A stretch of 64,000 nucleotides of DNA, from contig JAFS01000002.1 of NCBI GenBank assembly GCA_000526255.1, positions 434,001-498,000 on the forward strand, given 5' to 3'. Every line of letters starts with the position of its first letter. Position 1 is the stretch's first letter. Shown one piece after another: positions 2,612 through 8,512 of this stretch. Under the pieces are notes generated by a model. It did not search any database. It was not told where the DNA came from and saw only the letters and a program-made list of their open reading frames with translations. A program made the translations under genes and the position numbers. The DNA comes from Verrucomicrobia bacterium LP2A. Lineage in GTDB: Bacteria; Verrucomicrobiota; Verrucomicrobiia; Methylacidiphilales; Methylacidiphilaceae.

Positions 2612-3405
2612 GCTTCCGGCGGAGCTGGTCTTGCTCTCTCGTTTTCTTCCTACTCTGGATCGGCGCGAGATTGGCCCCAGCGGAGGGCTTCCGTATGGAC
2701 TTTCTCTGGAAAACCGATCGGAAGGAAGAACGCCTGTCTCTCCTCCGGAGAGGCCCCTATATCCGCATCGATCAGGCGGCCAATCTCTTTTCCCTGATCT
2801 ACAACCTGGAGCTCCAATCCTTCCTGGGGTTGGAGCATTTGGACGCCCACTTCTGGTCGTTCGACTGGCCGACGATCCATGCGAATGCGAGAGCCAGCCG
2901 GGAAAACGGATGGCGCCTCCGTTCCGATCCCTTTCCGGATGATCCGACTCTTCTCCCGTTCACTCCGTCCGCGCCGTCCACTTCGCCCCGAGCGACCGTC
3001 TTTCACGACTTAGCCCGCTTCTCCTGGTTTCGGGACCCGGGCCAGGGAGATCGCTGGATGGGGCGCTCCGACGAAGGCGAGCAGGCGGAGGTTCTGGCCA
3101 CTCCCTTGGAAAAAGACCGTCGGGCCTTTTGGCTTTCGACGGTGCAGCAGATGAAGACACTCTCCCAGATTTTCCACTTTCTCCTGGGACGGGAAGCCTG
3201 GCCCGAATCCGCTCTGGCGGTCTGGCTTTCTCTTCCGGCGGATAGCGGCATGTCCTTGGAAATGTCCTGGCGGAAAGCGGGCGAGGAAGAGGGGAAGCTG
3301 CGGCTGCTCGCCCAGCAGTGGACCGACCCACCGGCCGACTCCTTCACGGCTCCGAAGGGCTATCAGCGCGAGAGCCTCGAGGAAATCGAAGGATTTCTTC
3401 CCTAG
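2608..3405 (+). CDS. Secreted hypothetical protein
   Basis: I do not recognise this 265-residue family. It begins with a basic stretch and hydrophobic core (MSFRRSWSCSLVFFLLWIGA) ending in APAEG, a signal peptide with a plausible cleavage site near residue 25. The mature part is soluble, rich in Trp, Phe and Leu, and ends in LEEIEGFLP. A central Ser/Pro-rich linker lies near residues 115-130. It overlaps the YggS gene by ATGA. Periplasmic or outer-membrane placement is inferred from the signal peptide only. Confidence 0.8.
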   Translation: MSFRRSWSCSLVFFLLWIGARLAPAEGFRMDFLWKTDRKEERLSLLRRGPYIRIDQAANLFSLIYNLELQSFLGLEHLDAHFWSFDWPTIHANARASRENGWRLRSDPFPDDPTLLPFTPSAPSTSPRATVFHDLARFSWFRDPGQGDRWMGRSDEGEQAEVLATPLEKDRRAFWLSTVQQMKTLSQIFHFLLGREAWPESALAVWLSLPADSGMSLEMSWRKAGEEEGKLRLLAQQWTDPPADSFTAPKGYQRESLEEIEGFLP

Positions 3406-3469
3406 CCGGTTTTCTCTCCCCCCGGCCCCACCGGATTTTGTATATTTCGTCGATCACCGGTCCGGAGAA

Positions 3470-3934
3470 ATGGTCCTTACCCGAAGAAGCAAATATGCCT
3501 TGCGCGCGCTGGTCTACTTGGCACGAGCGCGGGGAAAGGGTAGCGTCCTCATCGGGGAGATCGCGGAGAAGGAGCGCATCCCCAAGAAGTTCTTGGAAGC
3601 GATCCTGCTCGAGCTCAAGAACAAGGGCGTCCTGGAAAGCCGCCGGGGGAAAGGGGGGGGCTATCAGCTCGCCGAAGAGCCAGGCAAGGTCCTCGTTGGC
3701 CAGATCATCCGACTCATGGACGGGCCAATCGCTCCCGTTCGCTGCATCAGTAGGAGCGCCTACGCGGCCTGCGAGGATTGCCCCGACGAAAGGCTCTGCA
3801 CGATCCGAGCCGTCATGAAGGAAGTGCGGGAGAAGATCTGCGAGGTGGTCGATTGGACCACTCTTTCCGACCTGGTCCGGAAGGAGGAAGAGCTGTGCTT
3901 AGCGACCCATCGCGCGCTCAGCTTCGACATCTGA
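3470..3934 (+). CDS. Rrf2-family transcriptional regulator, probable Fe-S sensor
   Basis: A 154-residue protein with an N-terminal winged helix (RRSKYALRALVYLA, then an IPKKFLEAILLELKNKGVL recognition region) followed by the Rrf2 wing (RRGKGGGYQLAEEP). Cysteines C92, C101, C104 and C110 are arranged much as in IscR-type regulators and could hold an iron-sulfur cluster, making it a redox, iron or NO sensor. Upstream (3406-3469) is an AT-richer stretch with a CACCGGTCCGG motif that could be a self-operator. IscR and other Rrf2 roles are alternatives; no isc/suf genes are adjacent. Confidence 0.92.
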   Translation: MVLTRRSKYALRALVYLARARGKGSVLIGEIAEKERIPKKFLEAILLELKNKGVLESRRGKGGGYQLAEEPGKVLVGQIIRLMDGPIAPVRCISRSAYAACEDCPDERLCTIRAVMKEVREKICEVVDWTTLSDLVRKEEELCLATHRALSFDI

Positions 3935-3975
3935 GGTGGCCGCCCTCGCCCTTGACCCCCGCGGAGCGCTTGCGA

Positions 3976-4635
3976 TCAGCCGAAGAACTTCGGCATCAGC
4001 AAACGCAGGAGCAGGATCGCGGAGCATCCGGCAAAGAAGCCGATCGCCAAGAGCAAGCCCACGGCCCAGAGGCGAAGGCCGGTAAGACGTTTCTGCAGGG
4101 TCCGACTCTGCTCCGTGATCTGCGAGACAAGACCGGTCAGTTGCGAGTTCTCCCGCTGCAACCTCTCTTGCCACTGCTGGGACGAGGAACCCAACAGATC
4201 CTGCAGATAGAGGACGTTCTGGTGGATCTGCTCCGTGATCTGCGAGACAAGAGCGGCCAGTTGCGAGCTCTCCCGCTGCAACCTCTCTTGCCACTCCTGG
4301 GACGAGGAACCCAACAGATCCTGCAGTTGGGTGGTGTAGTGGTGCAGGTATCCCAGGAACTGCTGCAACTCGTCCCGGCTGGGGGCCGTGCCGAGAGTAG
4401 GGTTGGAGGCGCTTTCCAGAAGCTCTTGCACTGCCCGAGGCACTCGCTCCAGATAGGCAGCATTGGCTTCGAGAAGAAGCAATAGGCCACTGAGGCTGTC
4501 GAAAGAGTGAGCGGGCTCGGAGCGGCTGCGGTACCACTCCCAGGCAGCTTCCCGCTTTTCCGGCGGGAGATGGGCGATCGCGGCCTTCCAAAACCGGTGC
4601 GGATCTTCGGGTTCTTCCGCCTCCGGATCATTCAT
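3976..4635 (-). CDS. Coiled-coil protein with C-terminal membrane anchor and internal 40-residue repeat
   Basis: A 219-residue protein of no recognised family. The N-terminal part is acidic (MNDPEAEEPEDPHRFWKAAI). Two 40-residue repeats, each starting LQDLLGSSSQ and continuing WQERLQRE, predict a Gln/Leu-rich coiled coil (about residues 103-180). A membrane segment follows near residues 188-213 (LWAVGLLLAIGFFAGCSAIL), with only a few residues after it, so it looks tail-anchored. Its start overlaps the stop of the upstream ParA-like gene by 4 bases. The pair resembles partition or conjugation accessory genes, but no function is shown. Confidence 0.8.
   Translation of the reverse strand: MNDPEAEEPEDPHRFWKAAIAHLPPEKREAAWEWYRSRSEPAHSFDSLSGLLLLLEANAAYLERVPRAVQELLESASNPTLGTAPSRDELQQFLGYLHHYTTQLQDLLGSSSQEWQERLQRESSQLAALVSQITEQIHQNVLYLQDLLGSSSQQWQERLQRENSQLTGLVSQITEQSRTLQKRLTGLRLWAVGLLLAIGFFAGCSAILLLRLLMPKFFG
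4111..4326. repeat. Direct tandem repeat, 120-base period, inside a coding region
   Basis: Two 96-base units (4111-4206 and 4231-4326) beginning CTCCGTGATCTGCGAGACAA and ending AACAGATCCTGCAG are nearly identical, differing at only a few positions. They are spaced exactly 120 bases (40 codons) apart and keep the reading frame of the coiled-coil gene. Near identity at DNA level suggests a recent duplication. Confidence 0.9.
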
Positions 4636-5462
4636 AAGAGATTTTGCAGATTCACCTTCCCTCCTCTCCGAATTCCCCGTCGTTCCTGCCCGCGATCAGG
4701 CGGTGGGGGTGCAGTCCGCTCAACTTTTTCCGCCTCTTCCCCGGCCAACAGAGTCGCGGCGGCACGGTCATAGCGGCCGAAAAGCAGCCGCAGCCAATCC
4801 TCCAGAATGACTCGATGAATCAGGTCGAGCTTCACCTCCGGATCGACAACGGCCTGCACGGGGGTGATCGCCCGTTGCAATCCGATTTCCAGAGCGGCCA
4901 GTGCGTCCTTGGTGTCAGCGAGCAGCGTCGGCAGTTCGAGCGTCGCGGCACCAAGGGAAAGCAGTTCCTTCTCGAGATCGCTGCCCTCGTACATGCGAAT
5001 CCGTGGAATTCGAGCGCGATTCCGAACGATCACGTAGTCCGCCTGACTACCCACTCGCTCCACCACTTCCGCGATCTCGTCCATCACCGCGAGATCATCC
5101 ATCGGATAAAAGAGCATAGTGACCCGGGTATCCGGCTCTCGATCGCCGTACTGAAAAAAGCGCACGGCTTCCAAGGAGCGGAGCAGCACGCGAGAGAGAT
5201 GCGCTCGCGGATCAATCAGGGTAAGAGGCGTTTCCGGGATGCCGCGAAAAAGGCGGATCAGATCGGTCTCCGGCTCCTCGGAGAGCTTGACCGCTTGAAC
5301 ACCCGGCACGGCTTTCGATAAGGTTTGATTATCCGAATCGAGGTCGAATGCCCGCCACGACAATCCTCGCGCCGACATCCACCCCAGCCGCGCAATCGCC
5401 TCCGTCGATTTGCCTACATTGCCCTTGCTCTGAATCGGGACGGTCAATCGATGCTTGATCAT
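4632..5462 (-). CDS. ParA/MinD-like P-loop ATPase (TraL-like)
   Basis: A 276-residue protein with the deviant Walker A motif KGNVGKST at residues 13-20, the hallmark of the ParA/MinD/Soj group, a FDLDSDNQT switch-like region, and a Walker B-like strand (TLIDPRA). A VRNRAR segment occupies the nucleotide-base contact position. The C-terminus is basic and Pro-rich. The next gene, a membrane-anchored coiled-coil protein, starts within its stop codon. No ParB-like gene or parS site is visible, so this is an orphan; plasmid TraL-type mobilisation ATPases are the closest analogy I can offer. It may be a remnant of an integrated mobile element. Confidence 0.8.
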   Translation of the reverse strand: MIKHRLTVPIQSKGNVGKSTEAIARLGWMSARGLSWRAFDLDSDNQTLSKAVPGVQAVKLSEEPETDLIRLFRGIPETPLTLIDPRAHLSRVLLRSLEAVRFFQYGDREPDTRVTMLFYPMDDLAVMDEIAEVVERVGSQADYVIVRNRARIPRIRMYEGSDLEKELLSLGAATLELPTLLADTKDALAALEIGLQRAITPVQAVVDPEVKLDLIHRVILEDWLRLLFGRYDRAAATLLAGEEAEKVERTAPPPPDRGQERRGIRRGGKVNLQNLL

Positions 5463-5693
5463 AGGTTAGCTGGTTCTCCAGAAAGAAACGGATGGGACGG
5501 TCGAACCGCTCCAGAACGCTGCCCATCGCCGAGACAATCATTTTCCCTGAACCGGGAGAATCGGATCGTGGAATGAGGAACGATCGTCGTCAATCGGATT
5601 TTTTCGCAGCTTCCTCGGGAGCGAAGGGATGCGTTTCCTCCGTCAGGCTGCTTGTGAAATCACCGCTCGCGGAGTTGGTTTTGCGCGGCGAGC

Positions 5694-7091
5694 CTACGGC
5701 ATGCTCTGGGAAAGTAGACCAACGGAAATGATCTCTCCCTCCTGCGATCGATATCGGCTTCCCAACGCTGCCGTCGCCCACGCCACGGTGGGGCGGTCTT
5801 GCGGACCGAAGACGATGTGCGGAAAGGGGCGGCTCGTTCCGTCTCCGATCTGGCGTCTCCATTGGAGAGCTCCCGCAGAATCCAACTTCGCCAAGTAGAC
5901 CCTTCCTCCTTGAGCCAACGGTTCGGTCGAAACCAGCGGGCCCTTGGCCTCCCCCAGCAGCCAGAGGCTCCCGTCGGCTCCGTAGCCGAGCGCCATCGGC
6001 CCGACGGAAAGATCCTTCTCGACTTCCCGACACCAACGGAGAGAAGCCGGGTCGCCACCGTATTCGGCGACGAAGAGCCGAAGCCCGCTCGGCCGCAGCG
6101 AACGATCGCCGGGACAAGCCCCCCATACGCTGCTCCCCGCGATAGCGACAGCTCCTTTTTCCGAACTCGCCACAGCAAACGCAAGATTGTTCCACATCCT
6201 GCCGAAAAGGTGTGACCAGAGCCTACGCCCAGATTCGTCCCAGCGATCGACGAAGATCTTCACCTGCGGTATCCCGCGGCTCCCCGAAGCAAGCCATCCA
6301 TAGTCGAGCCTCTCCTTGGGGGTTCCCCGCAGAGGGCTTGGTGGATTGCCTGAAAGCCCGGCAAAATAACCGACGACGGCGATCCCTCCGGTTGGAATCG
6401 CGGCAATGGCCACGGGATTCTGAATCCCCAGAGAGCCCGTTGCGAGCCACCGTGCGCCGGGCTGCCTCACCTCTGGAACCGCAGGAAGCGCATGGCTCTG
6501 CAGGAGAATGCCCTTCTCCGAATAATGAAAGATTCGTGTCTCCCCTTCGGCGATCTCTGGGTGATCAAAGCCTCCTCTCCTGGAGGGAGGCTCGCGTAGG
6601 GCGATATACAATCCTCCCTTCCCATCGGGCGTCACCACCTCACTCGGATTCACCGGATCGGCGGCCAGCTGCCGCCCCCAAAGCAGCTCTCCCTCGCCCG
6701 AAAAACGCCAGATCCGAAAAGCGCCGCCCGACTGTCCAGCCACAACGATCTCCCCACCGGGCTCGGAGACAAGGCGCAGACGGATGTCGAACGGGATAGG
6801 GTCGGTGATCGGCCTAGCCCAGAGCAGGCGTCCTCCGGGCGCCCAGCGGCTGAGCTCGGCACGGGTCCTTTGGCCCTCCTTCGGAAGAGGCGACGCAAGG
6901 AGCCAGAGACCCCCGTCGCCGCGCGGCAGGGCATCGTATGCTCTCTGTATCCTTCCCGGCCCGATCGCCCAGATCTGCCCACCCGACCCAGCCGCGTGCG
7001 CTGGAATCGCCTTCACGCCGAGGAGAAGGAAGCCGAACCCGACGAGAAGCAACCAGAGAGGAAGCGCGCGCCGGGACGGGTAACGGCTCAT
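5694..7091 (-). CDS. Secreted beta-propeller-like repeat protein
   Basis: 465 residues from the ATG at 7091, chosen because it overlaps the pepA stop by ATGA and yields a clean signal peptide (basic MSRYPSRRALP, hydrophobic LWLLLVGFGFLLLGV, then AHAAG). The remainder consists of repeated short strands with G-G-x-W/I and W-x-R patterns such as GGLWLLASPL, GRLLWARPI, GEIVVAGQS, ALQWRRQIG and GSLWLLGEA, as in SBBP or Kelch-like beta-propellers. Likely periplasmic, outer-membrane or extracellular. The ligand is unknown and the coupling to pepA does not clearly indicate a role. Confidence 0.8.
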   Translation of the reverse strand: MSRYPSRRALPLWLLLVGFGFLLLGVKAIPAHAAGSGGQIWAIGPGRIQRAYDALPRGDGGLWLLASPLPKEGQRTRAELSRWAPGGRLLWARPITDPIPFDIRLRLVSEPGGEIVVAGQSGGAFRIWRFSGEGELLWGRQLAADPVNPSEVVTPDGKGGLYIALREPPSRRGGFDHPEIAEGETRIFHYSEKGILLQSHALPAVPEVRQPGARWLATGSLGIQNPVAIAAIPTGGIAVVGYFAGLSGNPPSPLRGTPKERLDYGWLASGSRGIPQVKIFVDRWDESGRRLWSHLFGRMWNNLAFAVASSEKGAVAIAGSSVWGACPGDRSLRPSGLRLFVAEYGGDPASLRWCREVEKDLSVGPMALGYGADGSLWLLGEAKGPLVSTEPLAQGGRVYLAKLDSAGALQWRRQIGDGTSRPFPHIVFGPQDRPTVAWATAALGSRYRSQEGEIISVGLLSQSMP

Positions 7092-8512
7092 GACTGAGTC
7101 TCTTGATTCGCGAGGGAAAGCAGATAGCGGATCACGAGGCGCACGCCGAAGCCCGTCACTCCCTTTTCGAGGTAGGGAAGCTCGCGATTGACCCAAGCCG
7201 GTCCCGCAATGTCGAGGTGAACCCAGGGGGTTGCTCCCACCCAGTGCTGGACGAACGCGGCGCCGACCGATCCTCCCCCCTCCCGCGCGCCGGAAACGTT
7301 CTTCACCAAGGCCACGTCGCTTTCAATGGCTTCCCCGAACTCTTCCCCTAGCGGCAGAGGCCACACCGGCTCTCCCGCCTCATCCCCGAGCTGCCAGAGC
7401 TGGTCCCGAAGACCGGAGTCCGGAGAGAAGACTCCGGCCCGATTTCGACCCAGAGCCACGATGCAGGCGCCCGTCAACGTGGCGAGATCGAAGAGCAGGC
7501 GCGGAGCGAAACGCTCCACGGCATAGCCGACCGCGTCCGCAAGAAGGATGCGTCCTTCGGCATCGGTGTTCAGCACCTCGATCGTCTTGCCCCCGTAGCT
7601 GCGGATCAAGTCCCCGGGACGATAGGCGCGGGCGCTCGGCATGTTCTCGGCGCTGGCGACGACACCGACCAGCGGAATGGGCAATCCAAGCCGGCTTGCC
7701 GCACGCATGATTCCCAGGACAGCGCAGCCACCCATCTTGTCGAACTTCATCTCGTCCATGTGCTCGCCAGGCTTGATCGAGATCCCACCCGAATCGAAGG
7801 TTACCGCCTTCCCTACGAGGACGATCGGCGCGGCATCCGTCGGCCGATGTTCCAAGACAATCAACCGGGGTGGGTTGTCCGACCCCTTCCCGACCGCGAG
7901 AATTCCCCCGAATCCGGCCTCCTCCAACTCCTTCGGACCCAAGACATGACAGGAAAGGCGACTCTCGGCGGCGAGCTCCCGGGCCTTGTCCGCCAGGACC
8001 GCGGGTGTGACGACGTTGGCCGGTTGATTCCCAATCTGGCGGACGTAGTTGACGGCCTCGGCTAGGGTCGAGGAACGCTCGACCTCCGCGCGGGCCTTCC
8101 CGGGACCCCCTTTGCCGACAGCCACGACGAGCGTCCGAAGCGGACCACTTTTCCGAGCCTCGGGCATCCGAAAATCTTCAAACCGATACGAGGCGAGTAA
8201 AGCTCCTTCCACAGCGAAGCCAGCCCGTTCCGGAAAGGCGGTGCAATCGAGATGGATCTCCTCCCCGCCCAGCTTGCGAAGAAGCTTGACTCCCGTCCCT
8301 GCGGCCTTGCGCAGAAGATCGCCCGTAACGGGACCATCCCCCAGTCCGACGTAAACGATACGCCCTTGCCGCTCCCGCCAAATCAGGGTAGCCAGCTTCC
8401 CACCATCGAATTCCTCTTGAGGCACTCCGTCTTTGACGAACTCGCCCTTGCGGACAAAGACGACGCGATCGCCCCGCTGCGGCAGATCCTCTACCGTCAC
8501 GACCATACCCAT
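7088..8512 (-). CDS. pepA: Leucyl aminopeptidase, M17 family
   Basis: 474 residues, the usual size for cytosolic M17 aminopeptidases, which remove N-terminal residues using two metal ions. The catalytic half carries VGKAVTFDSGGISIKP (metal-binding Lys and Asp) and the family signature NTDAEGRILLADA (metal ligands Asp and Glu, catalytic Arg). The N-terminal macro-like domain is divergent, as usual. The start at 8512 is the only ATG giving a normal N-terminus (MGMVVTVEDLPQRGD). It precedes and is coupled to the secreted propeller gene. E. coli PepA also acts in Xer recombination, but nothing here indicates that. Confidence 0.96.
   Translation of the reverse strand: MGMVVTVEDLPQRGDRVVFVRKGEFVKDGVPQEEFDGGKLATLIWRERQGRIVYVGLGDGPVTGDLLRKAAGTGVKLLRKLGGEEIHLDCTAFPERAGFAVEGALLASYRFEDFRMPEARKSGPLRTLVVAVGKGGPGKARAEVERSSTLAEAVNYVRQIGNQPANVVTPAVLADKARELAAESRLSCHVLGPKELEEAGFGGILAVGKGSDNPPRLIVLEHRPTDAAPIVLVGKAVTFDSGGISIKPGEHMDEMKFDKMGGCAVLGIMRAASRLGLPIPLVGVVASAENMPSARAYRPGDLIRSYGGKTIEVLNTDAEGRILLADAVGYAVERFAPRLLFDLATLTGACIVALGRNRAGVFSPDSGLRDQLWQLGDEAGEPVWPLPLGEEFGEAIESDVALVKNVSGAREGGGSVGAAFVQHWVGATPWVHLDIAGPAWVNRELPYLEKGVTGFGVRLVIRYLLSLANQETQS

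Follow-up and report, generated by a model that had tools for sequence, protein, structure and literature searches.

A chromosomal StbB/TraL/MobD-related ATPase paired with a tail-anchored coiled-coil protein in Methylacidiphilaceae: possible domestication of part of a mobilisation module

Two overlapping genes on the chromosome of Verrucomicrobia bacterium LP2A (Methylacidiphilaceae, acidophilic methanotrophs) encode an ATPase with a deviant Walker motif and a membrane-anchored protein that carries an internal duplication. They lie in a stretch of 64,000 nucleotides (contig JAFS01000002.1, positions 434,001 to 498,000), here called the window, and the initial annotation proposed that they could be a partition or membrane-positioning device, or else the remains of a mobile element. 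The question is which of these descriptions fits the pair and what the two proteins might do for the host.

Table 1. The gene pair and its convergent neighbour (positions in the window)
Feature	Position	Strand	Description
ParA/MinD-superfamily ATPase, StbB/TraL/MobD-related	4632..5462	-	276 aa; QSKGNVGKST near the N-terminus; conserved C-terminal tail RRGGKVNLQNLL
Tail-anchored coiled-coil partner	3976..4635	-	219 aa; N-terminal domain, variable coil with duplication, C-terminal membrane helix
Stop/start overlap of ATPase and partner	4632..4635	-	4 nt; ATG at this place in 10/10 syntenic orthologous loci
Tandem duplication in the partner coil	4107..4326	-	120-nt (40-residue) unit, 1.8 copies, 96% matches
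Rrf2-family regulator, convergent	3470..3934	+	Pfam E 1.9e-36; syntenic flank

The open reading frames, their overlap, the repeat and the C-terminal helix were found as the initial annotation had described them, as was the neighbouring Rrf2 gene (Table 1). The upstream neighbour of the ATPase ORF is an unrelated 500-aa ORF. Eight neighbouring proteins, encoded between 929 and 11203, were compared with Pfam and three of them also with NCBIfam; no par, tra or mob protein was among them, in agreement with the claim that no parB, tra or mob gene lies alongside. The suggested search for parS-like sites and integration boundaries yielded neither: parS was sought as repeats within 3300-7200, where there was one imperfect 22-nt inverted pair with its copies 2.2 kb apart and no close inverted repeats; no tRNA gene, as a trace of integration, occurs in the window; and the GC content of the pair in 1-kb windows (0.595-0.618) fell inside the range of the flanks (0.574-0.663).

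Separate searches for the two proteins covered 40 related genomes, that of LP2A included. Their genes were adjacent in five further genomes of the same genus and in all five of a second genus, which we infer to be Methylacidimicrobium and Methylacidiphilum, respectively. The same neighbourhood was found in all ten other genomes of these genera whose contigs cover both genes, with the order coiled-coil gene, ATPase, 500-aa ORF, pepA and ispH preserved and both reading frames open at every locus; rrf2 adjoined the partner in nine, and the tenth contig ends before it. The coiled-coil gene is thus conserved beside the ATPase wherever both are covered, and the kept gene order, overlap and open frames in ten syntenic orthologous loci confirm that the pair is genuine, beyond chance. 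In G002, a genus member whose genome is 83% complete, the partner adjoins rrf2 at a contig edge and elsewhere there is only a distant ATPase (135 bits on rescoring ORFs from the relatives' loci). In the third genus, G008, the partner had no match, and the only ATPase match, at another locus, was a weakly similar orphan (8.4e-6); this genome lacks the pair, and since its synteny is broken, with pepA-ispH on one contig and rrf2 on another, gain and loss of the pair cannot be told apart.

Within Methylacidimicrobium, dN/dS (NG86) was 0.055-0.124 for the ATPase and 0.109-0.208 for the partner, compared with 0.098-0.148 for pepA and 0.058-0.098 for rrf2, both calculated without L032; many of the dS values were near or above 1, and among the Methylacidiphilum pairs three had no value for the ATPase and six none for the partner. 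The ATPase therefore falls in the range of its neighbours, and the partner is somewhat higher. Both genes are under purifying selection, and the pair is a fixed chromosomal operon in Methylacidimicrobium and Methylacidiphilum.

The constraint on the partner is concentrated at its two ends. Across 11 orthologues, 34 of 64 positions were invariant in the N-terminal domain (residues about 10-73) and 14 of 33 in the C-terminal membrane helix and tail, compared with 9 of 113 in the coil. The C-terminal helix (192-210) reached a Kyte-Doolittle value of 2.5 in the 19-residue window from residue 192. Because both ends are conserved and the coil between them is free to vary, the coil would fit the part of a spacer linking a binding head to a membrane anchor. 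Methylacidiphilum orthologues show an alignment gap in the duplication region, and all six Methylacidimicrobium genes aligned have a longer coil with two 40-residue units, identified by eye (4107-4346 in the window); the two units look most alike in L033, as if homogenised. Database matches of the partner were uninformative: those to the Pfam families baculovirus PEP_C and apolipoprotein were below cut-off, those to PADLOC (ZorA and others, best 1.7e-4) and NCBIfam were weak and mostly within the coil, and PHROGs gave no match at E<=0.01.

The ATPase motifs SKGNVGKS, DLD and DP showed no variation across 11 orthologues. The protein matched no curated family above a cut-off. Its match to Pfam CbiA (E 2.4e-4, 21.5 bits) was below the cut-off of 25.4 and that to Pfam MipZ had an E-value of 0.13. 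No NCBIfam family matched at E<=1, including StbB (NF041292), TraL (NF010461) and the GET3/ArsA-type models, nor did PHROGs or PADLOC at E<=0.01, and a PDB sequence search with the ATPase family profile returned nothing at E<=0.01. AlphaFold2 models built from 5-row alignments were too poor for use, with a mean pLDDT of 42.7 (ATPase) and 51.5 (partner). The LP2A genome has 15 CbiA matches, of which the best, at another locus, scored 101 bits, as would be expected of the normal chromosomal ParA, and the window ATPase scored 19.6 in the same search. The window ATPase is not the chromosomal ParA, and a ParABS partition system is not supported: no parB was found among the neighbours scanned, the CbiA match is under the cut-off and a much better CbiA/ParA match lies elsewhere in the genome.

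The search for relatives was extended to 387 genomes of the phylum. The ATPase family profile exceeded 250 bits in seven of them, six belonging to the family and the seventh being G362, a member of another family of the same class; the next match had 98 bits. The partner profile (E<=1e-4), which includes the G362 row, found the same seven genomes and no other, so that the co-occurrence of the two genes, which the initial annotation had proposed to check, was borne out. The G362 ATPase (locus L068, 253 bits) outscored every other match from outside the family in the genomes searched, and it lies in one cluster with a membrane partner, a T4CP (Pfam TraG-D_C, 9.6e-9) and a TrwC relaxase (5.5e-66). 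G362 and the window family share the N-terminal domain of the partner (hhalign 93.9%, E 1.5e-7, 36% over 56 columns), and the ATPase tail RGxKxNxxNL, compared by eye, is common to both. The G362 element differs in the presence of the relaxase and coupling protein, in an R at the signature K and in a partner that extends about 70 residues beyond its membrane helix.

In a tree of 47 rows, the window family formed one clade (93/92) inside a starred clade of 19 rows (99/98), and the nearest row outside the family was the G362 element (87/88, on a branch that was not starred). Four of the eight non-family rows of the 19-row clade have a relaxase in the stretch examined (L041, L042, L048 and L068), and the other four sit at contig ends or on short contigs. 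The tree is rooted at its midpoint, long branches meet near the G362 sister branch, and R388 StbB stands apart on a very long branch, its placement and some others being unsure. The window ATPase fell outside the chromosomal families of defined role in this tree, which includes few such references and has cyanobacterial 'MobD-like' sequences as its only TraL/MobD type sequences.

Mobilisation genes were common around the more distant relatives. A TrwC-like relaxase was present in 16 of 22 distant verrucomicrobial loci and a coupling protein in 14, so that 17 had at least one of the two in the stretch examined; in the five without either (L039, L043, L069, L144 and L145), the contig is short or the ATPase gene lies close to its end. 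These 22 loci derive from 25 verrucomicrobial rows outside the family, with the two ATPases of L069 counted once and with L102 (the second orphan lineage, see below) and L040 (G008), both chromosomal and relaxase-free in the stretch read, dropped from the count; L068, L046 and L041 supplied the queries for relaxase and T4CP and so match themselves, and of these the L068 proteins were checked with Pfam. A tail-anchored product was encoded directly 3' of the ATPase in 16 of the 22, judged by a plain hydropathy cut-off of 1.6 and with a choice of start that favoured a -3 overlap and so biased the overlap positions; in L068 the membrane helix is internal, and in L039, L041, L042, L044 and L028 this test found none at the tail. 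Small upstream proteins in the StbA position, with a helix-turn-helix look, were noted by eye in several distant loci. Plasmid matches to the window ATPase were weak (best E 2e-4) and comprised 25 records, chiefly from Nostocales cyanobacteria, of which 22 are typed as conjugative or mobilizable. The relatives in mobilisation loci span several verrucomicrobial families, and in the genomes searched the window type is confined to two of three genera of one family and G362. However, the chromosomal ATPases of L040 and L102, in their relaxase-free stretches, also group with mobile or plasmid ATPases, and kinship alone is therefore no proof of a recent mobile origin.

In the Methylacidiphilaceae themselves, the 14-16 kb examined at each of the ten syntenic window-type loci contained no match to a relaxase or T4CP, and TrwC had no match in the LP2A genome. 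TrwC was absent from nine of the 11 genomes having both genes and present in two of 13 family genomes. The TrwC-type relaxase genes of the genus are in G001:C124 (L101), where a further ParA-like gene is nearby, and in G006:C82 (L100). PF10412 (T4CP) gave 15 rows, from 11 of the 13 family genomes. Twelve of them, presumed to be FtsK-like, scored 18-22 bits, close to the cut-off of 20.5; the highest score, 41.3 bits, came from the G001 contig that carries the relaxase. A potential integrative plasmid, Minf_1153-1199, is reported in M. infernorum (PMC2474590).

Comparison with characterised systems places the pair near, and outside, the StbB and TraL families. In the stbABC operon of R388, as in the window pair, the gene of a ParA-superfamily ATPase precedes that of a short, coil-like protein whose C-terminus forms a membrane helix (StbC, hydropathy 2.08 from residue 98 of 128), and GNVGKST is common to the two ATPases. 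In contrast, R388 StbB has an S at the signature K of the window ATPase, and the window pair is chromosomal, with no adjacent StbA gene and no relaxase or T4CP found. The window partner and R388 StbC were aligned by hhalign with a probability of 0.4%, and the StbC model NF041291 did not match the partner, a weak test given that R388 StbC itself scored 0.0041, under the cut-off; as a control, R388 StbB matched the StbB model at 1.3e-100. The partner profile gave nothing useful against the L041 set, L048, L047, DUF6753 and StbC, and the match to the main verrucomicrobial partner set (50%) was discarded as coil-only. The G362 partner is the sole compared partner that is provably homologous, and consequently the others share only architecture and place. 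As for TraL (IncP) and MobD, the ATPases of L070, L092, L078 and L077 matched NF010461 weakly (E 7.9e-9 to 1.7e-5; 24-35 bits against a cut-off of 360), whereas neither the window ATPase nor its nearest mobile relatives, L068, L041 and L048, matched this model, and the latter three had no match to the StbB model either. The signature lysine is replaced in several of the nearest mobile relatives, by R in L068 and by S in the L041 group. VirC1 works with a relaxase and a T4SS, and we know of no membrane partner of this kind for it. Because a curated-model match and mobilisation neighbours are both absent, the pair is not filed as a StbB/TraL system and is probably something that descended from one and works like one.

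The LP2A chromosome also carries, at the locus G000:C1:820371-821663 (L092:922-2250, L121), a second orphan StbB/TraL-like ATPase of 236 aa with a small protein encoded upstream, between FabH-like and PurF-like genes (Pfam). As a query this ATPase matched all 13 family genomes at E<=0.001, with 90-100% identity in six of seven genus members, 60% in G008 and 31-34% in the five Methylacidiphilum genomes, where the matches lie at other loci and are candidate orthologues; the G002 match (2.2e-7) is its distant ATPase. It also matched the GET3/ArsA model weakly (3.6e-6, 26.7 bits, cut-off 135). In six of the 13 genomes, all Methylacidimicrobium, a small upstream gene in the StbA position accompanies it; three of these six rows have an in-frame TAG within the matched stretch, the protein had no Pfam match at E<=0.001, and 'StbA-like' refers to its place and look only. 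No StbA-like gene was found in the Methylacidiphilum genomes of L122, L123 and L126, in which a gene that by eye resembles one for a sigma factor stands upstream of the second ATPase's relative. In G002, a distant StbB-like ATPase (C238, L039:2079-2885) on a contig of 4.6 kb has a small gene upstream in the StbA position. The chromosomal orphan ATPase of G008 (C1, L040:6908-7705) groups with cyanobacterial plasmid ATPases (95/78), and no membrane partner was found directly downstream of it. Two cyanobacterial plasmids have a second, tandem ATPase copy (L077:5707-6513, L081:3858-4670), in which the Walker pattern searched for was not found, followed by a DUF6753-annotated gene; a membrane helix is present in the copy tested.

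The explanation that we prefer, with a probability of about 55%, is that the pair is a chromosomally domesticated StbB/TraL/MobD-like ATPase and membrane anchor that docks a host cargo at the membrane. Both the kinship of the ATPase with the lineage of mobilisation ATPases and its domestication are likely. Since its relatives sit mostly in loci with a relaxase and/or T4CP and G362 has the full cluster, the most fitting reading of the pair is a domesticated StbB-StbC-like fragment minus the relaxase, coupling protein and StbA. Membrane docking is a plausible mechanism. Dimerisation of the ATPase on ATP would serve as a switch; the ATPase would bind a cargo, either DNA or protein, and dock it at the membrane by way of the partner's N-terminal domain; the tail-anchored partner would act as the receptor and might also sense the nucleotide state of the ATPase. 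The transfer genes are gone at the window locus and a host cargo is therefore proposed, possibly a nucleoid region or a protein complex.

Published work on R388 bears on this model in both directions (PMC3098194). An ATPase of the StbB kind moves the plasmid towards the membrane so that transfer can take place, and StbB is a strict requirement both for R388 transfer and for the presence of plasmid foci close to the membrane poles; the manner in which it recruits the plasmid to the membrane is left open there. However, deletion of stbC, whose product is described as an orphan protein, affected neither conjugation nor stability, and transfer was normal when the whole stb operon was deleted. The membrane partner is therefore not essential in R388, which is a point against the docking model.

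Several other explanations were weighed against this one. The relatives lie mostly in mobilisation loci, the neighbouring genes are unrelated and TrwC relaxases persist in two genomes of the genus, as might be expected if the pair were simply what is left of a once integrated mobilisation element, decaying and now without function. That view is largely refuted, and we consider it highly improbable, since the frames are open and the overlap is kept in all ten syntenic loci, the Walker and DP motifs are invariant, dN/dS is well below 1 and the pair occupies the same place in two genera. The suggestion that the genes are remains of a mobile element is thus supported for their ancestry, given the tree, G362 and 17 of the 22 loci, but not for a remnant in decay, given dN/dS and an ATPase in the range of its neighbours; a mobile-element origin of the pair is fairly well supported. 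The same relaxases, which occur in two of 13 family genomes and in G001 adjoin the further ParA-like gene, would suit a helper acting in trans to position mobile elements, whether incoming or resident, for immunity or maintenance, rather than host DNA. This is improbable, although less so than a remnant, because nine of the 11 genomes with both genes have no TrwC match, the ATPase had no PADLOC or PHROGs match and the partner had only its weak, mostly coil-derived PADLOC matches.

A positioning system of the MinD, MipZ or McdA kind could instead have originated on the chromosome and been borrowed by mobile elements, not the reverse. The ATPase superfamily is the same and a midpoint-rooted tree cannot separate gain from loss, but the restriction of the window type, in the genomes searched, to G362 and two of the three genera of one family, the wide spread of mobilisation-locus relatives, with weaker ones on cyanobacterial plasmids, and the marginal MipZ match make it doubtful. 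Get3 handles tail-anchored proteins and shares the P-loop class of the ATPase, which together with the weak GET3/ArsA match of the second orphan ATPase might suggest a targeting pair in which the ATPase inserts its own partner. There is very little chance of this, as the window ATPase itself has no GET3-type match and an insertase with one substrate leaves the strongly conserved soluble N-terminal domain of the partner (34/64 invariant) unexplained.

The domesticated ATPase and membrane anchor may be part of a larger arrangement, although we regard this extension as speculative and rather unlikely. The Methylacidiphilaceae would have split a plasmid docking machinery into a tether of the chromosome or of a complex to the membrane, with the window ATPase and anchor as one part and, in Methylacidimicrobium, the second ATPase and its StbA-like protein elsewhere as the other, so that StbA-StbB-StbC would be rebuilt in split form. 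Were this true, ATPases of this class would, in mobilisation elements generally, have tail-anchored coiled-coil proteins as their membrane receptors.

In the literature, covered as titles and the beginnings of abstracts with subscription journals thinly represented, no account of the pair or of a tail-anchored StbB-like partner was found, which is weak evidence for its novelty. The present analysis offers a function-oriented reading for two genes that have no confident Pfam, NCBIfam, PHROGs or PADLOC assignment. A conserved, overlapping gene for a membrane partner beside relatives of the StbB type suggests a receptor candidate for membrane recruitment, and the chromosomal pair would exemplify DNA-transfer machinery that has been retained by the host for another use.
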